Shown here piece after piece: positions 5,046-50,013 of a DNA stretch of 55,479 nucleotides. The DNA comes from Flavobacteriales bacterium (GTDB lineage Bacteria; Bacteroidota; Bacteroidia; NS11-12g; UBA955). The position numbers and the translations under genes were made by a program. Position 1 is the stretch's first letter; every line of letters begins with the position of its first letter. The notes under the pieces were generated by a model. That model searched no databases, had not been told where the DNA came from, and worked only from the letters and a program-made list of their open reading frames with translations. The stretch lies in NCBI GenBank assembly GCA_947447955.1, contig CANFLS010000017.1, positions 1 through 55,479 of the forward strand, given 5' to 3'.

Positions 5046-6050
5046 ATGAAAAGTCCAATTACAGGTAAAGAAATGAAATTGACCAAAGAACGGAGGTCGA
5101 TGGATTTTAGAAAGGAAACATTTGAAATTTTATTTCATTTTTACAAATGCGAGGATAGTGCGGAACAATTTACTACCACGACATTAGATGAAGTGAATAT
5201 GAATCAGGTGTATAACCAATACCGTGATAAATTCAATATTCCATTTCCAGACGAAATAATCAAAATTCGTGAAAAGTATAGTTTATCAGCCGCTAAGATG
5301 TCGGAAATTCTAGGTTTTGGTGTAAACAGTTATCGACAATATGAAGCAGGCGAGATGCCCAGTGTGGCAAATGCCAAATTAATTCAGATGGTGGACGAAC
5401 CAAAAAGATTTATTGAAATGTTGGAATTGTGCGGTACATTAGATGAAAAATCCAAAAACAAATTAATACAGAAAGCACAATTGCTGTTAGACGAAAAGAA
5501 CCGAAATATTTTCAATTTGAATTTCAAAGAATATTTATTGGGCAACCATTTGGCCGATATTTATTCGGGATACCGGAATCCTAATTTTGAGAAGTTTACA
5601 GAAATGGTGGTTTATTTTTCCGACAAACTATCGCCATTTAAAACGAAGATGAACAAGCTTTTGTTTTATGCCGATTTTTTAATGTTTAAACATAGTTGTT
5701 TTTCAATTAGTGGAATGCGTTATAAAGCCATTGAAATGGGCCCTGTTCCCAATAATTTTCAAAGTATTTTTGAGTATTTAGATAATATTGATGAAATCGA
5801 TATTTTAACTACGGAGTTTCCTAATGGATATTCAGGAGAGCAATTCAAAGCCAGAAAAGATCGTAATTTTAATGCGGGTTTGTTTTCAGAAAATGAATTG
5901 AAAACTTTAGAAAAAGTAGCAACCGTATTTAATGAAACCAGCACGAATGACATTATCAATTTAAGTCATTTAGAAGAAGCTTGGAAGAAAAATGAAAAAG
6001 AGAAAAAGGTAATTAGTTATGAATATGCTTTTGAATTAAATCTGATTTGA
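5046..6050 (+). CDS. MqsA-like HTH antitoxin with Panacea (DUF4065/SocA-like) domain
   Basis: 334 aa. Residues 1-60 correspond to the MqsA zinc-ribbon region, but the usual N-terminal CxxC is replaced by SPIT (residues 3-6) and only Cys35 remains, so zinc binding looks lost. Residues about 68-120 are an XRE-type HTH (IREKYSLSAAKMSEILGFG...RQYEAGEMPS), which fits autorepression at the repeat at 4653-4674. Residues about 185-300 are a Panacea domain, with the hallmark KMNKLLFYADF at 201-211 and the YKAIEMGPVP stretch at 226-235. Panacea domains are known as antitoxin modules that neutralise many unrelated toxins. The gene follows the toxin by 6 bp. Assignment as the antitoxin of this pair is strong by context and domains. 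Confidence 0.85.
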   Translation: MKSPITGKEMKLTKERRSMDFRKETFEILFHFYKCEDSAEQFTTTTLDEVNMNQVYNQYRDKFNIPFPDEIIKIREKYSLSAAKMSEILGFGVNSYRQYEAGEMPSVANAKLIQMVDEPKRFIEMLELCGTLDEKSKNKLIQKAQLLLDEKNRNIFNLNFKEYLLGNHLADIYSGYRNPNFEKFTEMVVYFSDKLSPFKTKMNKLLFYADFLMFKHSCFSISGMRYKAIEMGPVPNNFQSIFEYLDNIDEIDILTTEFPNGYSGEQFKARKDRNFNAGLFSENELKTLEKVATVFNETSTNDIINLSHLEEAWKKNEKEKKVISYEYAFELNLI

Positions 6051-6087
6051 ATTCGTATTAACACTTAAAACACTATCTAGAGTTACT

Positions 6088-6741
6088 ATGAAATCAGAAA
6101 ATTTAAATAAAGGTCAAAATGAGTTTGCTGATAAAGTCATGAAAGGCTTAGAAATCTCATTTCAAAAACTTCTTGAATTTAAGAAACAAAAGAATTCTCC
6201 TTTGGTTGTAGTGCGTAATGGCAAGATTGTTGAAGTTATGGCTGAAGATTTTTATAAGGATGCTGTAAAAAAAGACAATTTAACATACCTTAGTCATGAA
6301 GTTATGAACTTAAAAGAAATTCCATTCGCAAAATTACTTGCTGTTTCAGATAGTACTTCCGGGTTTTTATTTGAATTATCGGATGATGAAAAGTATACCA
6401 ACCATTTGGGAACGGTGGCTGCCGCTGCGCAATTTTCGTTGGCAGAATTCGCCTCGGGACAATGGCTGATTCATGCTTTTCCAGAGTACGCAACACAAGT
6501 GATTCCTGTTTTGCGCAAATCGGAAGTTAAATTCAGAAAACCAGCCATGGGTAGGGTTCGCGCTCGTGCCATCGTAAACGATGAATCCCGTCATCAATTT
6601 TTAACAGATCTTACCCATCGTAAACGTGCTTTGGTTACAATTCTCATTGAATTGGTGAATGATGATTTAGAAATTGTAATGAGCGGAACTTACGAATGGT
6701 TTATTCAGCTTCAAACTCCTAGAAATATTTCAAATTATTGA
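6088..6741 (+). CDS. Hotdog-fold (DUF4442-type) protein with an extra N-terminal segment
   Basis: 217 aa, starting 37 bp after the antitoxin. Residues about 95-210 resemble DUF4442/YiiD-C hotdog thioesterase-like proteins: HLGTVAAAAQFSLAEFASG as the central hot-dog helix, then strands VIPVLRKSEVKFRKPAMGRVRARA and LVTILIELVNDDLEIVMSG. Residues 1-80 are not part of that domain and contain PLVVVRNGKIVEV, which looks like a small beta-hairpin module. The protein has no signal peptide, so it is cytosolic. The hotdog fold suggests acyl-CoA or a related ligand, but no catalytic residue can be assigned. It may ride on the toxin-antitoxin transcript, as no terminator is visible between them. Confidence 0.6.
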   Translation: MKSENLNKGQNEFADKVMKGLEISFQKLLEFKKQKNSPLVVVRNGKIVEVMAEDFYKDAVKKDNLTYLSHEVMNLKEIPFAKLLAVSDSTSGFLFELSDDEKYTNHLGTVAAAAQFSLAEFASGQWLIHAFPEYATQVIPVLRKSEVKFRKPAMGRVRARAIVNDESRHQFLTDLTHRKRALVTILIELVNDDLEIVMSGTYEWFIQLQTPRNISNY

Positions 6742-6761
6742 TATATTTGTTTAAGCGTATT

Positions 6762-8048
6762 TTGAAAAAACTCATTTCCATATTCACTCTGTTGTTTTTA
6801 ATGACATCTAACGTCTTGAAGGCTCAAGATAGTTTGCAATGTGGATTTAACCGTGATTTTTTTAGTTCAAGTTACAGCGATTGGTATCAACAAACCGTTT
6901 CTGAATTAAGGAAACCTAAAGAGAATAAAAGATGGAAGGTTTCAAAGGATACCGAATTTATCATTCCTGTTGTTTTTCATTTGATTTATCCTTTTCGTGT
7001 TCCTTTGGATATTGCACAGATTCCTAAAATTATGAATGAAATCAATGCTGATTTTATGCGCTTGAATTCAGATTCTATAAAACTTAGGTCTAAATTTAAA
7101 AGTAGAGCAGGGAATGCTAGAATTCGATTTGTATTAGTTGAACAAGATGAAAAAGGACAGCCCAGCAAGGGTTATACAATTCGAAATAGTTTAAATTATT
7201 TTGGTATTGAACCGAATCAGCCATATAAAGACATGCATAGAATGAAGTTTAAGGCCTATGAAGGTACACCACCATGGAATACAAAGAAATATTTAAATAT
7301 TTGGGTTTGTAATTTAACATCTTTTGAAACTGGAAAAACTTATGTAAATGGTTTTGCAACACCACCCAAGAATGCTCCACATTGGTCGCCTATTTATTTT
7401 GCAGACAGTTTAATTGATGGTATTGTAATTGGAAAAAATGTTTATTCGAATTCAGCCCGTTCAAGTACATTAACTCATGAAATTGGTCATTATTTAGGTT
7501 TGCGACATGTTTCAGGAGATCCACCTGGATTCTTGGATAGCGCTTTAATGTGTACATACGATGATTCGATTTTTGATACTCCTAGAGTCTTACATCAGAA
7601 TTATTACTGTGATACTACCATAAATTCTTGCATTGAACCCGTTAATGATTTGCCTGATATGCTTGAAAATTTTATGGATTACACGGGCGACAATTGCAAA
7701 AATTCTTTTACCAAACAACAAGTTAGTTTAATGAGGTATTGTTTGAACACGTTGAGGCCTCAATTAGCGAATCTAGAAATCAAATCAATTGTGAAACCTG
7801 ATTTATTTTTGGTGGATGTTTATCCAAATCCCAATATAGGAAGCCTTCACATTGACTTTAAAGATTCGTTTTCTAATAATTATTCAGTTGTTATGTTCGA
7901 TTATTTAGGAAGAAAAGTATTGGAATCTCAAATTACTCAAGCCAAATCCATTATAAATCTTGAAAGCTTATCGAGTGGCTTGTATTCCATTGCAATAACC
8001 AATGACAAATCTGAAATTCTTTATCGAAAGTCAATTTTCAAAGATTGA
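6762..8048 (+). CDS. Secreted M43 (pappalysin-like) metalloprotease with T9SS sorting domain
   Basis: From TTG 6762 the product begins MKKLISIFTLLFLMTSNVLKAQ, a good signal peptide. A TTG at 6738 would overlap the previous stop and give a poorer one; the first ATG (6801) would destroy it. The zinc motif HEIGHYLGLRH sits at about 239-249 and the Met-turn (ENFMDY) at about 305, with Cys residues between them as in M43 metzincins. About 80 C-terminal residues form a type A sorting domain (VDVYPNPN...SGLYSIAI...SIFKD). The protein should be exported by Sec and then across the outer membrane by the T9SS, whose PorU/PorV genes are at 29301-34025. Substrates are unknown. A TATATTTG box at 6742-6749 lies just before the chosen start. 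Confidence 0.87.
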   Translation: MKKLISIFTLLFLMTSNVLKAQDSLQCGFNRDFFSSSYSDWYQQTVSELRKPKENKRWKVSKDTEFIIPVVFHLIYPFRVPLDIAQIPKIMNEINADFMRLNSDSIKLRSKFKSRAGNARIRFVLVEQDEKGQPSKGYTIRNSLNYFGIEPNQPYKDMHRMKFKAYEGTPPWNTKKYLNIWVCNLTSFETGKTYVNGFATPPKNAPHWSPIYFADSLIDGIVIGKNVYSNSARSSTLTHEIGHYLGLRHVSGDPPGFLDSALMCTYDDSIFDTPRVLHQNYYCDTTINSCIEPVNDLPDMLENFMDYTGDNCKNSFTKQQVSLMRYCLNTLRPQLANLEIKSIVKPDLFLVDVYPNPNIGSLHIDFKDSFSNNYSVVMFDYLGRKVLESQITQAKSIINLESLSSGLYSIAITNDKSEILYRKSIFKD

Positions 8049-8184
8049 GGCTTTTTTTACTCAATTCCGTAATCTATTGATTGTAAGTTTTTTGTCATGA
8101 ATATATCAATTTGTGTGACTTTTTGATTAAAATCCGTTTCTTGCAATCAGTTATTGGAAATCAATAATTTAAATTGAAAAAGTT

Positions 8185-9072
8185 ATGGAAAACAAATTCA
8201 CAAAAATCTTCTATGGTTTCTTTCTGGTTGCTGCATTTGTGGCATGTAAGCCGGAGGACAATATCAAAACACAAGTCCCTCAAAAAACGGATACTGTTCC
8301 AACAATTGACTGGATAACAATTCCATACGATACTTTTATGATGGGAAGTGATATGAATGAAAATGGTCATGAATATAATTACGAAGTACTACATTTTGTG
8401 GTTTTAGATTCTTTCAAATTAAGCAAGTATGAAGTTACCTTCGAACAGTACGATTACTATTGTGAAAAAACAGGTAAACAAAAACCAGATGATAACGGTT
8501 GGGGTAGAGGTAAGCGTCCTGTAATCAATGTGAGTTACTATGACGCACTTGAATATGCTAAATTCATGAATTGCCGATTGCCTACAGAGGCAGAATGGGA
8601 ATATGCATGTAGATGCAGGAAAAGCTATAAAAACAAATATGGGAAGGTGCAATTCAGTTTTGGCAGATATAAGCCATTCAATACTGGCGATACATTATTA
8701 TCAGATCAAGCCAATTACGATGGTACTCAACCATATTTAAAAAATCCAACAGGTGCATTTTTAAATAAAACCGCAGAAGTTGGTAGTTACAAACCCAATG
8801 CTTTGGGTTTGTATGACATGCATGGAAATGTGATGGAATGGTGTTTTGATTGGCATGATTATATACCAGGGTTCAGTGATTATGGGAATATTGGCGCTGA
8901 TGTGAATCGCTGTATCATTAATCCGAAAGGACCAACAACAGGTACTGAAAAAATTGTAAGAGGTGGCAGCTATATGACTCCTGCTTATCGGTGCCGCACG
9001 GCATTTAGAAATCGCGTTATTCCAACTTATTCAGGAAATATGGTAGGAATTCGATTGGTATCGGATATGTGA
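8185..9072 (+). CDS. FGE-sulfatase-fold lipoprotein (SUMF1-like, GldJ/GldK relative)
   Basis: 295 aa with a lipoprotein signal ending FVAC (Cys21). The rest is one formylglycine-generating-enzyme (SUMF1) domain: MMGSDMNE at the start, SKYEVTFEQYDYYC, RLPTEAEWEYACR, GLYDMHGNVMEWCFDW, and VRGGSYMTPAYRCR...GIRLV at the end. True FGEs carry two catalytic cysteines after the GGSYM segment. Here the first position is Thr, and the only Cys nearby is in AYRCR, so oxidase activity is doubtful. The same fold is used non-catalytically by GldJ and GldK, the latter part of the T9SS ring (family knowledge). A structural role in the envelope is possible. It stands alone between the protease and the ATPase gene. 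Confidence 0.78.
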   Translation: MENKFTKIFYGFFLVAAFVACKPEDNIKTQVPQKTDTVPTIDWITIPYDTFMMGSDMNENGHEYNYEVLHFVVLDSFKLSKYEVTFEQYDYYCEKTGKQKPDDNGWGRGKRPVINVSYYDALEYAKFMNCRLPTEAEWEYACRCRKSYKNKYGKVQFSFGRYKPFNTGDTLLSDQANYDGTQPYLKNPTGAFLNKTAEVGSYKPNALGLYDMHGNVMEWCFDWHDYIPGFSDYGNIGADVNRCIINPKGPTTGTEKIVRGGSYMTPAYRCRTAFRNRVIPTYSGNMVGIRLVSDM

Positions 9073-9117
9073 TTTTATTTATTGTATTAAGCAAAATTTA
9101 CGTATTTTGTTTGTTGT

Positions 9118-9147
9118 ACTAAACAAAATGCATTATTTTTGTTTAGT
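9118..9147 (+). promoter_or_regulatory. Perfect 11-bp inverted repeat overlapping the -7 box of the ATPase gene
   Basis: ACTAAACAAAA (9118-9128) and TTTTGTTTAGT (9137-9147) are perfect complements around an 8-nt spacer. The -7 box TATTTTTG (9134-9141) runs into the right arm. A looser copy (AAGCAAAAT...ATTTTGTTTG) lies at about 9089-9112. A repressor dimer bound here would block the promoter (inference). Confidence 0.6.
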
Positions 9148-9159
9148 TAATTAAGCATT

Positions 9160-10356
9160 ATGGTAGATTTATATAGTCGTTTTTTACGCAAATTATCAAA
9201 TGTGTCTTTAGATTTTACCCGTTCTGCCATGGATGAAATTCCTTGGAGGGCTCAATTGGTAGGCATTAAAGGCGCCAGAGGGGTAGGGAAAACAACTTTG
9301 TTGCTGCAATACATAAAATTGCATTTGTCTAATCAAATGGCACAAACGCTTTATGTAAGTTTGGATTCATTTTGGTTTTCCTCGCATTCGTTGTCTGAGT
9401 TAATTGAAGATTTTTATAAACAAGGAGGGAAGTTTTTATTTTTAGATGAAGTGCATAAATATCCCAATTGGGCACAAGAATTGAAAAATGCCTATGATGA
9501 TTATCCCGACTTAAAAGTTGTCTTTACGGGGTCTTCAGCTTTGGAAATATTAAATGCAAGGGCTGATTTAAGCAGGAGGGCTGTTGTTTATGAGATGCAG
9601 GGATTTTCATTTCGCGAATTCTTGGGCATAGAAACCAAAATTAACTTTTCTATTTTATCCCTCAATGAAATTCTGGAAAAACACGTTGAAATTACTCAAG
9701 AGATTGGTCAGAAAATAAAACCATTTCAGTATTTTTCGAAATATTTAGAATTTGGTTATTATCCTTTTTATAGAGAGGATAAAGAGTTGTATGAGATAAA
9801 GTTAACGGAAGTAGTGAATATGATTTTGGAAATAGAATTGCCATTGTTGAGGGGAATAGAGTCGGGATATGTATTTAAGCTGAAAGAGTTATTATCGGTG
9901 ATTTCGGCATCAGTACCGTTTACTCCAAACATTAGCAAATTGAGAGAGAAATTAACAATTAATAGATCAACAATTTTGTCGTATTTGCATTACTTTCAGG
10001 AAGTAAGATTAACCAATAATCTTTTTAAAGAGGCAAATGGGATCAGTAAATTACAAAAGCCACAAAAAATATACTTAGAAAACACCAACTTGATGCAAAT
10101 TTTATCGGCTAATAATGTAAATATTGGGAATGTGAGAGAGACATTTTTCGCGAATCAAGTGGGTTTTAGGCATAATTTATTGTATACCGAAAAGGGTGAT
10201 TTTTTGGTAGATGAAAAATACACATTTGAAATAGGAGGAAAAGGCAAAACCAAACACCAAATTGAAGGCATAGAAAATGCATTTATTGCTGCCGATGAAA
10301 TTGAGTTTGGATTCAATCAAAAAATTCCTCTTTGGTTATTTGGCTTCTTATATTGA
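9160..10356 (+). CDS. AAA-family ATPase with C-terminal DUF4143
   Basis: 398 aa. Walker A is at residues 38-46 (GARGVGKTT) and Walker B at 91-99 (KFLFLDEVH). FTGSSALEIL and the GFSFREFLGIE segment follow, all in the order typical of the AAA_14/DUF4143 family. The C-terminal third ends with VDEKYTFEIGGKGK, resembling the restriction-nuclease-like core of DUF4143. These proteins are widespread, often horizontally spread, and their role is not established. Expression is probably controlled through the inverted repeat at 9118-9147, which covers its promoter. The neighbours are unrelated accessory genes. Confidence 0.85.
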   Translation: MVDLYSRFLRKLSNVSLDFTRSAMDEIPWRAQLVGIKGARGVGKTTLLLQYIKLHLSNQMAQTLYVSLDSFWFSSHSLSELIEDFYKQGGKFLFLDEVHKYPNWAQELKNAYDDYPDLKVVFTGSSALEILNARADLSRRAVVYEMQGFSFREFLGIETKINFSILSLNEILEKHVEITQEIGQKIKPFQYFSKYLEFGYYPFYREDKELYEIKLTEVVNMILEIELPLLRGIESGYVFKLKELLSVISASVPFTPNISKLREKLTINRSTILSYLHYFQEVRLTNNLFKEANGISKLQKPQKIYLENTNLMQILSANNVNIGNVRETFFANQVGFRHNLLYTEKGDFLVDEKYTFEIGGKGKTKHQIEGIENAFIAADEIEFGFNQKIPLWLFGFLY

Positions 10357-10418
10357 TCTAATTTTATTTAGGAGGGACATTTGTTTGGCTTGGATTTGAA
10401 TAAAAGATTGTGGTTATT

Positions 10419-10939
10419 CAAATTAAACGATGTGCCATTAGAAAGTTTATTTCATAAATAAATAAAATTCAATAATTTTGACTAATAAATTTAATAGAAT
10501 TATGAAAAATAGATTGTTTATTTTGATGTTGTCTTTTGCTACAATTGCGTTAAATGCGCAAACTACCGAACATTTAAAATTCAAAGGCGTTCCTATTGAT
10601 GGTACCTTGGAAGCATACACTAAACAGATGAATTTAAATGGATTTACATTGACAAGTTCTCAAAATGGAACTGCATTGTTCATTGGTGATTTTGCAGGAT
10701 TCAAAGATTGTAAAGTCGGTGTTAATACTTTAAATCAAAAAAACTTAGTATATAAAATAGGTGTAAAATTCTTGGATAAATCAACTTGGGCTGGTCTTAA
10801 TGGGGATTACCAAAGCTTGAAATCAATGCTAACAGAGAAATATGGTAAACCCACTAAAGAACTGGCGAAATTTGAAACAAGTTATATACCGAATAACGAT
10901 AATGATCCATTTTATGTAACTCTACATGGAATAATTTAA
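10419..10939 (+). repeat. Tandem duplication, copy 1 (promoter region plus truncated gene)
   Basis: This stretch and 11615-12284 align from the upstream region (shared TTAGAAAGTTTATTTCATAA and TAATTTTG boxes at 10473-10480 and 11673-11680) into the coding part. Similarity stops where copy 1 ends early. The copies are separated by one lipoprotein gene. Confidence 0.8.
10502..10939 (+). CDS. Small secreted protein, truncated paralogue of the gene at 11703
   Basis: 145 aa from ATG 10502 (signal peptide MKNRLFILMLSFATIALNAQ, cleaved after AQ). The mature part has TEHLKFKGVPIDGTLEAY, FIGDFAGFKDC and YGKPTKE in common with the neighbour at 11703, but the product ends about 45 residues earlier. The reading frame leaves the homologous sequence after the Asn/Asp-rich NDNDPF segment and ends in LHGII, so the C-terminal part was lost by a frameshift or deletion. 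I do not recognise the family. It may be a degenerate duplicate; a TAATTTTG box at 10473-10480 suggests it is still transcribed. Confidence 0.65.
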   Translation: MKNRLFILMLSFATIALNAQTTEHLKFKGVPIDGTLEAYTKQMNLNGFTLTSSQNGTALFIGDFAGFKDCKVGVNTLNQKNLVYKIGVKFLDKSTWAGLNGDYQSLKSMLTEKYGKPTKELAKFETSYIPNNDNDPFYVTLHGII

Positions 10940-42819: not shown

Positions 42820-44277
42820 TTAAGAAATTACAGATTGAATTGTACCCAATATCCGGAAATATTCAGTTAGCGAAATCATATATTTACCATATTGTTCAAT
42901 GGTTTTTAACTTGGCTTCAAGATATTTGGTTTCACGAGAATTCAACAGAAATATAGTGCCATCGCCACTTTCGAATTTTTTAATCTCCATTTGGTATAAT
43001 TGGTAATATCCTGTTTCTACATTTTTGAGCATATCCAAAATTTCTTTATATGCCAATGTCTGTTTTTTTAGGGCAAGTAATTTGGTTTCTATTTCTCTTT
43101 GCTTTAAAGTAGTTTCAAACTGATTTTCTAATAACTTTAATTTGGCTGTTTTCAATTCTCCCCTAGATGTCCTAAAATACAAGGGCGTAGAAAATGAAAC
43201 TCCAAATCGATGATTATCCAAAGCACTGCTTCCATAGATAGGCAAAATATCTTTGTTTAGGTATTGATATTTTAAATCTAACTTTGGAAGGACATAACTT
43301 TGTTTTAATTGGATATCGAGTTTGAGTGAATTGTTTTTTTGGAAATAGATCTGCAAATCGGGCTGATTAGAAATGAAACTGTCTGTATTTTCAAGTTGCG
43401 CCAAGAATTTGGTTTCTAATTGCTCGAAAAATTTATTTGAGGGAAGGATATTAGATTTTATTGAAATGGGTGTGAATTCAATTTCTTGATTGGTTTTTAC
43501 AGAATTCCATAGATGAGCAGTAAACAGTATTTTGGTTTTTTCTGAATAAATAGCAACTTCCTTTTGCTTGGTTACAAATTGGTTCAATTGCACAGAGGTT
43601 TCAAGAGTATCGAACCCGCTGCATCCTCCTGCCACAAACAATTTTCGAATGGCAATTTGTCTATCGTTTGATAGTGCAATAGAAGAACTTAAGATGTTTT
43701 TTTGTTCTTCAAAAACATACCATGAAATATATTGGTTCCAAATGTTTAAATGTAAATTTTGGATCATTTGCCTTTGAACAATTTCAGACTGAACTTGAAA
43801 TACTTTTGCTTGTTTTAATGCCGTTCTTCTTTGATCAGTAATTAGATTTTTCAATGCAGAAAATTCGAAACCCATATAAGATAATCCCGAATTCCCTGTT
43901 ATTGATTCTGGATTTATGTATGTTCCATTATTATTTTCATAACCAATAAGAGGAGTTATGGGCGATTTTGTATTAAAATCGACTTCAAAAAATTGATTCT
44001 GATAATATTTTTTATTGTCTAAGGTTTTTTGTTTAAAATCATATTGAATTACGGGATCAAAGTTACCTGAAGCTTTTTGTTGGTTGGCTATGGCATATTG
44101 CAATTGCAAAAACGATGAATAGGTTATAGGGTGATGTTTATTTATGTTTTCAAATACATCATGAATGGTTAAAAATTGAAAGGTGTCGGGTTTTTGAGCC
44201 GATAATGCAAGTATGAATAATTGAGACAATAAAATTCCTAAAAACTTTAAACGCATAGTTGAATTATTTTTTTTCAT
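42820..44277 (-). CDS. TolC-family outer-membrane efflux protein
   Basis: 485 aa from ATG 44277 (ATG 44256 gives the shorter signal MRLKFLGILLSQLFILALSAQ). The long amphipathic helices of the OEP fold are visible: LTIHDVFENINKHHPITYSSFLQLQYAIANQQKASGNFDP at the N-terminal helix start, FVAGGCSGFDTLETSVQLNQF in the middle, and LYFRTSRGELKTAKLKLLENQFE in the second repeat. The FxxGxxxxxDTLE stretch is typical. It forms a channel-tunnel in the outer membrane. Its start overlaps the HlyD gene by 14 bp, so it is the last gene of the exporter operon. Confidence 0.88.
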   Translation of the reverse strand: MKKNNSTMRLKFLGILLSQLFILALSAQKPDTFQFLTIHDVFENINKHHPITYSSFLQLQYAIANQQKASGNFDPVIQYDFKQKTLDNKKYYQNQFFEVDFNTKSPITPLIGYENNNGTYINPESITGNSGLSYMGFEFSALKNLITDQRRTALKQAKVFQVQSEIVQRQMIQNLHLNIWNQYISWYVFEEQKNILSSSIALSNDRQIAIRKLFVAGGCSGFDTLETSVQLNQFVTKQKEVAIYSEKTKILFTAHLWNSVKTNQEIEFTPISIKSNILPSNKFFEQLETKFLAQLENTDSFISNQPDLQIYFQKNNSLKLDIQLKQSYVLPKLDLKYQYLNKDILPIYGSSALDNHRFGVSFSTPLYFRTSRGELKTAKLKLLENQFETTLKQREIETKLLALKKQTLAYKEILDMLKNVETGYYQLYQMEIKKFESGDGTIFLLNSRETKYLEAKLKTIEQYGKYMISLTEYFRILGTIQSVIS

Positions 44278-45562
44278 TTTTGATTATTGGTTTGTAATAA
44301 TCTGGGGAAAATCCACACATAGTTCTCCATATTTCATACCAAATTGGAACTTTCTTTAGCAATAAGTATCCATTTGCACCAACCCCAATTCGAAGTTCAT
44401 TGGGCCAAGGTTTAATTTCACTTTTGGGCTTTACCAAAATTCTATATTTGCCATTTTCATTCGGTACAGAATTAATTGCATAAACTTCACCTGGAAAGGT
44501 TCCATAAGTTAATTTGGGCCATCCAGAAAACACCATTGTTGGCCAACCGTCAAAAATAAATTGCACATGATTTCCAACCGAAATTAATGGCATATCAACT
44601 GGGTCAATAAATAACTCAACAATGTGATTCATTGAATTAGGAATGATTTTGCAAATAGATTGACCTTCTTTAATAGTTTCACCAATTCCATTCAATTTGG
44701 TTTCAGTAATAAAACCAGATTGAGGGGCTGTAATGGTGTAGAAACCATTTCTAATGCTATAATTTGAATACGTATTTCTCAATTTGGAAACTTCACTTTC
44801 TGTTTCCATTTGTCCGGAAATGGCAGAATATCTTTCGCTTTCACTTTTCGATAATTTTTCACCGTATTCTGCACTCACATTTTGCAATTCGATTTTTATA
44901 TTTTCTATTGCTATTTTGGTTTGTCTAATTTTAGATTCTATACCAAGTAGTTTAGAAACAGATTCTTGCAATTTGTTTTTTCTGTTTTCAACATCAAATT
45001 GGCTTTTTATATGCTGTGTATACAAAATGCTATCTCGTTCATATTGCTGCTTAGAAATTTTTGCATTTGTTTTTGCTGATTCTAAATCTGCATAATCAGC
45101 CTGCAATTTAAATTGCTCTTGGTCGAGTTTATTCTTTATTTTATTGTAAGATAATTCTTTGCTAATTTCTAATTGTTTTATCTGGTTGTTTATGGCATCT
45201 ATTTTAGAACTATAAGAAAGAATTGATTTTTCTTTCGCTTTGAGTTGTATATCAGTTTGCTGTAGGAGATCAGGATTTAAATATTCACCTTTGATTTCAG
45301 TAATTACGGCAATAGTATCACCGGCTTGAACATAATCGCCTTCGTTTATGTACCACTTATTTAATTTTCCGGCAATTACAGATTGAATTTCTTGAGGCCT
45401 TTCATTAGTTCCAAATGCAGTGACCTTGCCTTTTGATTGAATACTCTGTGTCCAAGGTAAAAACAAAATCAAAATTACAATCAAGAAAATGATAAATATG
45501 AGTTTGCCAAACCTGTTATTTGTCCAGTTGCTATCTCTGGTAAGAAATTCTAATTTATTCAT
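44264..45562 (-). CDS. HlyD-family membrane fusion protein
   Basis: 432 aa. One membrane segment (GKLIFIIFLIVILILFLPWTQ, about 19-39), then a biotinyl-lipoyl-type half-motif (VIAGKLNKWYINEGDYVQAGDTIAVI, about 62-88), a long coiled coil (about 95-265, rich in K/Q/E/S), the second lipoyl half (GFYTITAPQSGFITETKLNGIGETIKEGQSICKI) and a beta-barrel domain (VELFIDPVDMPLISVGNHVQFIFDGWP). HlyD proteins bridge an inner-membrane pump and a TolC channel. ATG 45562 overlaps the upstream ABC gene's stop (ATGA type), so translation is coupled. Confidence 0.92.
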   Translation of the reverse strand: MNKLEFLTRDSNWTNNRFGKLIFIIFLIVILILFLPWTQSIQSKGKVTAFGTNERPQEIQSVIAGKLNKWYINEGDYVQAGDTIAVITEIKGEYLNPDLLQQTDIQLKAKEKSILSYSSKIDAINNQIKQLEISKELSYNKIKNKLDQEQFKLQADYADLESAKTNAKISKQQYERDSILYTQHIKSQFDVENRKNKLQESVSKLLGIESKIRQTKIAIENIKIELQNVSAEYGEKLSKSESERYSAISGQMETESEVSKLRNTYSNYSIRNGFYTITAPQSGFITETKLNGIGETIKEGQSICKIIPNSMNHIVELFIDPVDMPLISVGNHVQFIFDGWPTMVFSGWPKLTYGTFPGEVYAINSVPNENGKYRILVKPKSEIKPWPNELRIGVGANGYLLLKKVPIWYEIWRTMCGFSPDYYKPIIKNEKK

Positions 45563-46545
45563 GATAATTCGTTGATTTCGTTTAGTTTTTCGACTGAAAT
45601 ACCAGCGTCATACAAATATTCAACTGTTAAAATTAATTTTTCAATGGCCTCTATTAAAGTGAAAACCAATATCTCAGAGGCCAGGAATTGTCCCAAACTG
45701 ATACTTTGGTTCACAAGTAAATAACTTCCTATAATTAACATCGTTGCCGTTAATATTACTTTTATTCCAACACCAAGCCATGCTTGTTTTAATAATATTA
45801 AAAAATGGTTGTTTCTTGAAACTACATAGTCCTCCAATGATTGGTCAATTTTATTTGAATTGTCATCATTTTTTTCCTTTGCAAATTGTTGAATGCCCTC
45901 GGCTGTTTTGAATTTGAAATAACTTTCAGATCTGGCAGTATTAAACCCTCGGTACCATGTGAATTTTAATGAAAAATAAACAATAAATCCAACCAATATA
46001 CCAAAAATGATAAAAAATGGATGATAAAAGCAGAGTAAAATCAAACCACAAACAGCCTGTAACAACTTCCCTGTAAAATCCGTAATTAACTTAGAAAAAC
46101 TCTTTTGTAGGGTAATTATATCCAAAAACTTTGTAGATGCAGAAAAAACTGAAGGGTTATTATCTCCAGAATATTCAGTAATGGAATTTTTGAATTTTAT
46201 CGTATAACGAACAAATAACTTTCTTTGAAAACTATCAATAATACTCAGTTGCGCAATTCTAGATAAGCCTAGTAAAAATACTGCCCCAGTAATAATGGCA
46301 ACCAATATTACCCAACTACTCGACAACCGCCCAGCCAATACAAATCCTATAATTGTTTGAATTCCTAGAGGAATTGTTAAACTAATAATTCCGGCCAAAG
46401 CTGCGTAAATATACAAATACTTAACACTTTTCTTTTCAAACTTGATAATTTGAAATAGGGTTTGCAAAGCGAATTGTATTTTTTCTCTCGCTAACTTATT
46501 GTTTTCTGGAGTATGATGGGGATTTGAATTATATAAATTTGCCAT
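45559..46545 (-). CDS. ABC exporter transmembrane domain protein lacking an ATPase domain
   Basis: 328 aa. Residues about 45-320 look like a type I exporter TMD: six hydrophobic segments (KYLYIYAALAGIISLTIPLG, WVILVAIITGAVFLLGLS, LLQAVCGLILLCFYHPFFIIFGILVGFIVYFSL, VILTATMLIIGSYLLV and the last SEILVFTLIEAIEKLI). The protein ends at EKLNEINELS, where bacteriocin/toxin exporters would continue into the nucleotide-binding domain. No Walker A, LSGGQ or Walker B motif is present, and the HlyD ATG overlaps its stop, so nothing follows. No frameshift is visible at the end. It must use another ATPase or work without one. It is the first of the three exporter genes, 45 bp after the sugar transferase gene. 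Confidence 0.8.
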   Translation of the reverse strand: MANLYNSNPHHTPENNKLAREKIQFALQTLFQIIKFEKKSVKYLYIYAALAGIISLTIPLGIQTIIGFVLAGRLSSSWVILVAIITGAVFLLGLSRIAQLSIIDSFQRKLFVRYTIKFKNSITEYSGDNNPSVFSASTKFLDIITLQKSFSKLITDFTGKLLQAVCGLILLCFYHPFFIIFGILVGFIVYFSLKFTWYRGFNTARSESYFKFKTAEGIQQFAKEKNDDNSNKIDQSLEDYVVSRNNHFLILLKQAWLGVGIKVILTATMLIIGSYLLVNQSISLGQFLASEILVFTLIEAIEKLILTVEYLYDAGISVEKLNEINELS

Positions 46546-48009: not shown

Positions 48010-48903
48010 CTAGTTCAAATGAGATAAACGGATATTATCAAATAATATTTCACGAGAGCCGGAAAATGATGCAGGTTTATCTATGCTGTACACAATCTGA
48101 AATGTTGTACCTGCTGCTTGACCTTGTATTTCATAGATTAAATCTACATAAAATCTTTTCCAAACATCTCCTGTAGGATTTATAAATAAATAAGGAACAT
48201 ATTCAGCGCCATTTGTTGGGCTATTTCTTTTAAGTGCCAATTGAACTGGTAAATCCGTTTTTATATCAAACTCTAAATTAATGCTGACTCCGTTAAGTGG
48301 TAAGTTTTTGAAAATATCAAAACAACCTAAATCCATCGATTTGAAGCTATCGTTATTTGCAAAAGTTGCAGCAAAGCACTTGGTAGTGCCGCCAAATCTC
48401 TTGTTTAATTCAAAAGGCCTACTTACAATTTGCGTTGTATCTCCTTTTGTAAGTGATATGGGAATGAGTGTTGAAGTACTATTTTGGAAATCTTCTTGCC
48501 ACAATATTTTAGCGTTATTTCGATAAACGAATTTGGGTGTAAAATTGGTGGTTTTATTTCTAGAAAGTGATATAAAAGTATCGAGCGGATTCAAAACCAT
48601 GTATGAAGCATAGGTTTGGCTATTCCCATTACGTTTTATATAGGGTGCAAAAATAAAGTTGTTTTTCCCTTCTGCATCAAGTGGTATTTGGGAAGGCACT
48701 GGATAGGTACCTAAAAATTGATTGTTTTGGTAAAGTTGAAAAGTAGTAATTTGGTGGATATTATTTCCGCCAATGCTACTTGCATCAACATTAAAACTGT
48801 CGATTTTCAAATAGGAAGGAATAAAATTTTTCTCAGTATGACATCCCCCAAAAGATAAAACAACTAATAAAGAGATGATTACGTTTTTTATATGCTTTCG
48901 CAT
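48010..48903 (-). CDS. Hypothetical lipoprotein
   Basis: 297 aa with lipobox SFGGC (Cys20). The rest is beta-rich (SYLKIDSFNVDASSIGGNNIHQITTFQLY, NFIFAPYIKRNG, EILFDNIRLSHLN), resembling the uncharacterised two-domain lipoproteins with a carbohydrate-binding-like C-terminal jelly roll. I recognise no catalytic motif. It has been kept next to the WcaJ gene with a 0-bp junction, so a role in surface polysaccharide or its export is plausible (inference). A TACTTTTG box on the minus strand (48916-48909) lies 5 nt before its ATG. Confidence 0.7.
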   Translation of the reverse strand: MRKHIKNVIISLLVVLSFGGCHTEKNFIPSYLKIDSFNVDASSIGGNNIHQITTFQLYQNNQFLGTYPVPSQIPLDAEGKNNFIFAPYIKRNGNSQTYASYMVLNPLDTFISLSRNKTTNFTPKFVYRNNAKILWQEDFQNSTSTLIPISLTKGDTTQIVSRPFELNKRFGGTTKCFAATFANNDSFKSMDLGCFDIFKNLPLNGVSINLEFDIKTDLPVQLALKRNSPTNGAEYVPYLFINPTGDVWKRFYVDLIYEIQGQAAGTTFQIVYSIDKPASFSGSREILFDNIRLSHLN

Positions 48904-48964: not shown

Positions 48965-49933
48965 CTAAACAGCTTGGTAGCGGCGTTTTACCTTTTCACA
49001 AATTGTTTCACAAATAATGGCAACCGTTTCTAAATGGTCTAATCCATTAAGTGGACTTAAGTTTTTATCGATATTCTCGAAAAAATTACGCAATTCCATA
49101 CGTTTAACGTCATACGGCATGATATTTCTATCGATTGATATGAATTGCTGTATATCAGAACTTTGATGTGGATTTAAGTCAATATTTAAAGACAATTGGT
49201 CAGTATTTGAAGCCAATCGAAATTCCATTAACTGATTTTCTTGAAAATCGATATGAAACAATTTCTCATGCTGAAATACTCTCAATTTATGGGTATTTTC
49301 CTCAATGGCCCTACCCAATGAAATATGGCAAATTGCGTCATTGTCGTATTCAATATGAATATTCAACAAATCGGTATGTTCACCAAATAAAAACATAGGT
49401 CGTGCAGAAATACTGCGAATATTGCTACCAATGATTCTATTGATGAGGTCTAATTCTTGAGCCAATTGATTGAAAATCCATTGGTTGAATTCGCCAGTTT
49501 TTGGTGCTTGACAATGTTTTTCAAGCTTAATAAAACGTGGTTTTTTAAGGTATTGGAGGGACGTTGTAAAAAGTGGTAAACTGTATAAAGTATTTCCAAA
49601 TTGAAAAATGGTTTCAGATTCCATTCTCAATTTTTGAAGTGTATCTAATTCGTGCGCTGACCAGTTTCTATAACCATCAATAAAAATGTTCTTACCAAAC
49701 TTCATCATCTGACAAATCACATCAAATGATACATTATTCACTTGGTTTCCAATAATGAAATTATCGCCGGTTTGGATGATTTCCAAAATTTTAATAAAAT
49801 CACCAAACATGTTATAATTTAATGAATCATCTGGATCAATATATCCAGTTAATTCAACATCCTTTGAATCTCTCAATAAAGCAGCATATTCGTCGACCGA
49901 TTTATTTGATCCAAGAATGATTGTTTTTTTCAT
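48965..49933 (-). CDS. Gfo/Idh/MocA-like Rossmann oxidoreductase, divergent
   Basis: 322 aa from ATG 49933 (MKKTIILGSNKSVDEYAALLRD); an upstream ATG at 49987 would overlap the pcm region. The N-terminal Rossmann strand keeps IILGSN but lacks GxGxxG (reads GSNKSV). Its Gfo-like features are VELTGYIDPD, MMKFGKNIFIDGYRNWSAHEL (the variant of EKP-x-a...A), and a C-terminal beta domain with HKLRVFQHEKLFHIDF. A member of the oxidoreductase-like group is likely, but the altered nucleotide loop leaves NAD(P) binding uncertain. It is upstream of the lipoprotein and sugar transferase genes by about 60 bp and divergent from pcm. Function unassigned. Confidence 0.6.
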   Translation of the reverse strand: MKKTIILGSNKSVDEYAALLRDSKDVELTGYIDPDDSLNYNMFGDFIKILEIIQTGDNFIIGNQVNNVSFDVICQMMKFGKNIFIDGYRNWSAHELDTLQKLRMESETIFQFGNTLYSLPLFTTSLQYLKKPRFIKLEKHCQAPKTGEFNQWIFNQLAQELDLINRIIGSNIRSISARPMFLFGEHTDLLNIHIEYDNDAICHISLGRAIEENTHKLRVFQHEKLFHIDFQENQLMEFRLASNTDQLSLNIDLNPHQSSDIQQFISIDRNIMPYDVKRMELRNFFENIDKNLSPLNGLDHLETVAIICETICEKVKRRYQAV

Positions 49934-49947
49934 TTGTGATATATGGT

Positions 49948-49955
49948 TAATTTTG
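49948..49955 (+). promoter_or_regulatory. -7 box (TAATTTTG) of pcm
   Basis: TAATTTTG in the divergent region between the Gfo-like gene and pcm, 58 nt before the pcm ATG. Confidence 0.5.
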
Positions 49956-50013
49956 CAGCGCCAACAAATTTTTGATTTTATTGTCATTAATAAAACAAGG
50001 CATTCTTAACACC

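Follow-up and report, generated by a model that had tools for sequence, protein, structure and literature searches.

The window analysed here is a 55,479-nucleotide stretch of contig CANFLS010000017.1 from a Flavobacteriales bacterium (assembly GCA_947447955.1). On its minus strand lies a three-gene cassette (Table 1) consisting of the transmembrane domain (TMD) of an ATP-binding cassette (ABC) exporter that lacks the nucleotide-binding domain (NBD), a HlyD-family adaptor, and a TolC-like channel protein. The TMD and HlyD genes overlap by 4 bp, HlyD beginning before the TMD gene has ended, and the HlyD and TolC genes by 14 bp, which bears out the three-gene operon with overlapping junctions put forward in the preliminary description of the locus. 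Both the HlyD and the TolC protein of the window gave Pfam matches above cut-off. By gene order and overlaps, HlyD and TolC share one operon with an inner-membrane exporter, as in type I secretion. The NBD with Walker A, signature, Walker B, and H-loop that also belongs to such systems is absent from the window and degraded in relatives.

Table 1. Genes and protein features of the exporter cassette
Feature	Position in the window	Strand	Description
TMD-only ABC exporter protein, without NBD	45559..46545	(-)	Open reading frame of 328 aa
HlyD-family periplasmic adaptor	44264..45562	(-)	432 aa; PF13437, E 8e-13; TIGR01843, E 5.3e-27, under its curated cut-off
TolC-like outer-membrane channel protein	42820..44277	(-)	485 aa; PF02321, E 6e-23
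Tip of intracellular loop 1 (ICL1)	46126..46173	(-)	TMD codons 125-140, coupling helix 1 in NBD-bearing relatives; decayed in the window
Tip of intracellular loop 2 (ICL2)	45838..45900	(-)	TMD codons 216-236, coupling helix 2; most NBD-bearing relatives have ~8 residues more here; decayed
Acidic stripe of transmembrane helix 6 (TM6)	45601..45675	(-)	TMD codons 291-315; E291, E299, E302, E309, D313

Alignment with full-length relatives revealed that the TMD protein of the window stops just past TM6, ahead of the NBD, at the point where the preliminary description had expected that domain to begin. The same description held that the lost domain is not hidden in another frame. This view was confirmed: the start of HlyD overlaps the end of the TMD gene, and in a six-frame tblastn search with five NBD queries (E 1e-3), neither the window nor any of the 24 further loci of this TMD-only clade showed a remnant of the NBD. 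As a positive control, the search matched 6/6 sister loci with a decayed NBD, three of which had supplied queries. The TMD protein matched no Pfam family at E 0.1, the SbmA/BacA family included, and its NCBIfam matches to type I and bacteriocin exporter models were weak (best E 7.7e-6) and far under the model cut-offs. The AlphaFold2 model (mean predicted local distance difference test score (pLDDT) 78.8, predicted template modelling score 0.73, 23 sequences) consists of one elbow-like N-terminal helix (residues 13–36) and six long helices. In a Foldseek search with this model, PCAT1 (8vpa) was the best match (E 2.3e-4), TM287/288 was also among the first, and HlyB came at rank 17. The 12 matches at E <= 0.001 had TM-scores by query of 0.42–0.55 and root-mean-square deviations of 11–12.5. 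The protein was assigned to the ABC exporter TMD fold; the PF00664 cut-off was passed by three of five full-length relatives and by two of two proteins of a second TMD-only clade (see below), not by the window protein itself.

The TMD was found in 53/70 genomes of the family, and HlyD occurred in the same genomes (53/53). A TMD-only form is present in 25 of them, the window included, all in genera g1, g4, g5, and g10. Ten genomes from g2, g7, and g8 carry a longer frame, 17 from g3, g11, g13, and g14 a longer or split frame, and one (G008) a broken copy; NBD motifs were read in the retrieved loci only. HlyD accompanies all 25 TMD-only cassettes, and TolC is in view in 24/25, the contig of L145 ending first. 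The close homologues, likewise TMD-only, stop within ~20 residues of the same point. All 25 TMD-only rows fell into one clade (Shimodaira-Hasegawa-like approximate likelihood-ratio support 99) of a 64-row HlyD tree, nested in a 35-row set together with ten decayed-NBD rows from sister genera (support 100). Both HlyD trees used in this study are quick trees with midpoint roots; the first was calculated without bootstrap and without L113, L124, L123, L157, L090, L093, L073, L074, L075, L077, L079, L091, and L092 (partial, broken, duplicate, or near-duplicate). The ratio of nonsynonymous to synonymous substitution rates (dN/dS) of the TMD was 0.016–0.107 in 8/9 TMD-only pairs, at synonymous distances (dS) of 0.50–1.36. 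For the ninth pair and for the TMD of both decayed-NBD pairs dS was not computable, and five pairs share four sequences. On this sequence evidence we conclude that the TMD-only exporter is a maintained form and no fresh truncation. The preliminary description had proposed as much, and the expectation under a simple truncation, namely that all close homologues carry an NBD, does not apply to this clade.

Three side observations concern these loci. TolC is the fastest-changing gene of the cassette, with ~25–41% identity to that of the window versus ~49–60% for HlyD in TMD-only loci outside the nearest subclade. In L122 (G023), the TMD and an NBD-bearing part with Walker A occupy two successive frames (8598–10338), possibly a split gene. 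In L123 (G008), WcaJ, TMD, HlyD, and TolC are all broken (~5510–10887), while the genes on either side, GyrB and the lipoprotein, appear intact.

A conservation scan over all TMD columns, with L114, L122, and L080 left out, revealed the largest losses at residues 126–139 and 217–231. The relative conservation of the ICL1 and ICL2 tips was 0.37 and 0.32 in the window's clade, 1.00 and 0.90 in 30 relatives with Walker A, and 0.81 and 0.92 in nine decayed-NBD sisters. The latter values become 0.77 and 0.88 when Maribacter L089 is included, which completes the decayed-NBD group of ten. With the two tips taken together, the window's clade differed from the Walker-A relatives by -0.601, the ten decayed-NBD rows by -0.101, and the second clade by -0.104. 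For comparison, when the Walker-A rows were split at random 200 times, the mean difference was 0.006 and the lowest -0.084; a subgroup of 13 Walker-A rows differed from the other 17 by +0.108. The tips were chosen after the conservation scan, and the shift test (4/311 as low) is thus descriptive. These comparisons indicate that the tip decay is particular to the window's clade and not a property of the decayed-NBD sisters. The model of the NBD-bearing relative L071 contains short separate helices at 114–119 and 214–219, which fall in the two tip loops and align with loops of canonical exporters. In the window model, ICL1 is coil at 125–130, at a low confidence (pLDDT ~57), and ICL2 forms a three-residue turn at 224–226 (pLDDT ~77). 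Elsewhere in the TMD, codons 96 and 253 (46258–46260 and 45787–45789) encode Lys or Arg in 25/25 and 24/25 rows of the window's clade, respectively, versus 1/30 and 2/30 Walker-A relatives. These basic gains perhaps reflect a change at the lipid interface after the NBD was lost.

TMD-only proteins were also found outside the family. A search of the phylum (E 1e-20) detected the TMD in at least 98/395 genomes, that of the window included; at most five candidates were scored per genome, and the counts are lower bounds. Six genomes besides that of the window, from families f3, f11, and f12, have TMD frames of only 334–360 aa, with HlyD and TolC beside the TMD in 6/6 loci. The six rows formed a clade of their own (support 96). 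Forcing it together with the window's clade lowered the log-likelihood by 229.5 (p 2.5e-48 in the approximately unbiased test), which rejected a single shared origin of all TMD-only forms. This second tree additionally left out L145, L146, L148, L152, L154, L155, L149, L150, L153, L072, L099, and L104 for speed, and L189, where no HlyD is shown. We conclude from the tree that the NBD is lost twice, separately, in the same class. The nearest full-length relative of the second clade, L183 (support 92), has kept the Walker-A Lys; its Walker-B Asp-Glu, signature, and His are missing. Downstream of L177, ~1.3 kb past TolC, a separate frame of 282 aa contains a weak match to the NBD (60 aa, E 2.7e-7).

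The NBDs of the relatives are eroded to different degrees. Among 48 scored NBD-bearing rows, the signature was kept in none, the H-loop His in one (L162), the Walker-B Asp-Glu in two (L080 and L095), and the Walker-A Lys in 36; the alignment held 49 rows, and the 48 scored include several near-identical Sediminibacterium rows and two records counted twice (L157/L090 and L121/L093). The Walker-A Lys is replaced by Arg in 10/10 sister-genus rows and is also missing in Maribacter L089 and the divergent L080. The phylum-level relatives L189–L195, six of which lie on the other side of the root in the midpoint-rooted tree, carry the Walker-A Lys (7/7), Asp-Glu (7/7), and mostly the His (5/7); their signature is canonical in none, and two keep LSTGQ or LSTGE. 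All five complete exporters of the window's own genome keep Lys, His, and the Walker-B Asp, one having Asp for the catalytic Glu, and their signatures are SGGQ (three), SGGE (one), and SQGQ (one). The pattern indicates that the ATPase is eroded before its deletion: the catalytic motifs went first, then the Walker-A Lys, and then the whole NBD, an order that depends on the midpoint rooting of the second tree. A TetR gene precedes the exporter in 5/10 sister genomes (L112, L113, L117, L144, and L156), in many NBD-bearing loci, and in 1/6 second-clade loci (L177); none was found in the TMD-only loci of the window's clade whose upstream gene is in view. The other NBD-bearing members are located at other loci than the window cassette. 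As a side observation, the full-length relatives L183, L187, L188, L190, L192, and L195 (~724–832 aa) have an additional ~155–250 residues at the N-terminus. Pfam scans of this extension in L183, L190, and L195 yielded nothing above cut-off, not even a C39 peptidase.

The TM6 residues E291, E302, E309, and D313 are invariant in 25/25 TMD-only rows and, by helical arithmetic at 100 degrees per residue, lie on one helix face. An acid at position 299 occurs in 22/25 rows of the window's clade, 9/9 sisters, 0/30 Walker-A relatives, and 0/6 second-clade rows. In the five canonical exporters of the genome, positions 291, 302, and 309 are never acidic, and position 313 is acidic in one.

To our knowledge, SbmA has no HlyD–TolC partners. 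According to a published account, SbmA/BacA (SLiPT) proteins have neither NBD nor coupling helices, use a membrane glutamate ladder with protons, and are thought to derive from full-length ABC exporters; SbmA is an importer with an extra helix, TM0 (PMC13316013). On that description, the window protein resembles them in its ABC-exporter-type TMD, its membrane acids, and the loss of NBD and coupling helices, for which the model agrees at ICL2 and is of low confidence at ICL1. Unlike SbmA/BacA, it has no TM0 in the model and no Pfam match, and it belongs to an operon with HlyD and TolC. This gene set of inner-membrane exporter, HlyD, and TolC is shared with the type I exporters HlyB, PrtD, and PCAT, from which the window protein differs by the absent NBD and, in its clade, the decayed coupling-helix tips. 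The ABC–HlyD–TolC operons of Bacteroidota, that is, the NBD-bearing members of the same family, for which we found no established name, have homologous TMD, HlyD, and TolC proteins. They differ from the window's clade in retaining an NBD, albeit one whose motifs are degraded, and often a TetR gene. An ATPase-less HlyD–TolC exporter was not among the literature matches listed, which came from narrow phrase searches covering few subscription journals.

We consider it fairly probable that the cassette is a type I secretion-like tripartite exporter that has turned ATP-independent, in parallel to SbmA/BacA. A TMD dimer would sit in the inner membrane, dock the HlyD ring and TolC, and move or gate the substrate without ATP. 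Most likely, it would be driven by an ion gradient by way of the TM6 acidic stripe of the family, as in SbmA/BacA. We propose tentatively, and with clearly less confidence, that the cassette encodes an ion-gradient-powered trans-envelope exporter within a HlyD–TolC machine, which would be an independent conversion of an ABC exporter into a secondary transporter besides SbmA/BacA, with intermediates alive in sister genera. The observations that weigh against an ATP-independent exporter are set out below, each with the alternative to which it belongs.

Ion coupling is favoured by analogy with SbmA/BacA. A passive HlyD–TolC platform nevertheless stays a serious rival, because the stripe predates the loss of the NBD and 5/9 sisters have Gly at position 302. 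The phylum-level relatives with ATPase-like NBDs have E291 in 7/7 and acids at 302 and 313 in 6/7; the stripe thus did not arise with the loss of the NBD, and only the acid at 299 is specific. This finding weakens the gain of acids as proof of proton coupling. In the platform model, the TMD is no longer a pump and would serve as an inner-membrane anchor or stopper that assembles a HlyD–TolC conduit for periplasmic substrates. We regard this as possible, although rather doubtful. The invariable company of HlyD fits the model, as does the fact that only the cytosolic tips are relaxed: TM5/TM6 (1.31 vs 1.08) and TM1–TM2 with the periplasmic loop (1.16 vs 1.02) are more conserved than in the Walker-A relatives. 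However, the most conserved stretch of the TMD is the cytoplasmic part of TM3 (1.45), and the cytoplasmic part of TM4 also rises (1.22), neither of which a purely periplasmic anchor would need, and the charged TM6 positions are invariant.

The preliminary description had offered a shared separate ATPase, a scaffold, or an ion-driven pump. The last two remain the live choice, whereas an NBD acting in trans, be it a stand-alone ATPase or one borrowed from a complete exporter of the genome, is improbable. In its favour, the genome encodes five complete exporters and 11 NBDs in frames of 216–312 aa, an RsgA-like protein (L061) having been set aside. However, no stand-alone NBD of the family was detected in 12 TMD-only genomes with a sister NBD query at E 1e-6; matches occurred only inside frames of 514–681 aa (best 62.8 bits). 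The known NBD copies in four sister control genomes, among them the query sequence, scored 188–490 bits. For G297, whose NBD is known, the score was just 47.4 bits, so a strongly diverged family NBD would be indistinguishable by score, and the query is poor for the second clade. Ten of the 11 short-frame NBDs were scanned, the eleventh (L041) being read outside the scan. Their best models were MacB, LptB, LolD, FtsE, DrrA, MetN, GldA, heme import, gallidermin protection, and an L-ocin_972-type model for a putative bacteriocin exporter. All but one of the ten matches fell short of the model cut-off, and fused type I exporter models were not among them. The window's clade moreover has two decayed docking tips and a shortened ICL2. 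PrtD, a type I exporter, uses ATP. Its solved structure is described as having no coupling helix 1 (PMC8277102), and ICL2 is therefore the stronger evidence. Taken together, the comparisons make an NBD in trans unlikely for the window's clade. The second clade retains docking sequence (relative conservation 1.05 at ICL1 and 0.70 at ICL2), and its tips may still bind something. Since its ICL1 sequence is kept, the argument does not extend to the second clade.

That the cassette is a decaying remnant without function is very improbable. It is broken in G008, a genome of the same genus, and 17/70 family genomes gave no match, which indicates that it is dispensable in some. However, the cassette is intact in 25 genomes of four genera, with strong column conservation and a TMD dN/dS of at most 0.107 at the distances given above. 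An assembly or frameshift artefact can practically be dismissed: the source is a 70-contig draft genome, but 25 assemblies, one of 9 contigs at 99% completeness, and second-clade genomes of one and two contigs (G356 and G368) show the TMD-only form, the HlyD and TMD genes overlap at the point in question, and a remnant of the NBD was found in none of the six frames.

In the genera concerned, the cassette is flanked by genes for PepP, PCM, a 340-aa protein, a lipoprotein, WcaJ, and GyrB. The preliminary description had taken the WcaJ sugar transferase and the lipoprotein as a hint of polysaccharide or surface-glycoconjugate export. We rejected this link: the lipoprotein occurs in 68/70 family genomes versus 53/70 for the exporter, and WcaJ directly adjoins GyrB in six cassette-free loci (L164, L165, L168, L169, L170, and L171), the distribution of WcaJ being read from such loci and not from a search of the 70 genomes. 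The neighbourhood of the cassette is thus incidental. The lipoprotein-like protein (48010–48903) has no Pfam or NCBIfam match and adjoins WcaJ wherever both are in view. The 340-aa protein (48965–49987) has no significant match in either database and is kept between the lipoprotein and PCM genes across these genera.

ABC exporters are defined by their ATPase. In this family, the relatives line up from degraded motifs over the loss of the ATP-binding Lys to full deletion of the domain, while its partner proteins are retained; in a second lineage, the domain was lost separately. How an ABC transporter turns into a secondary transporter, or into a platform that no longer pumps, can thus be tested directly by comparing sister genera.

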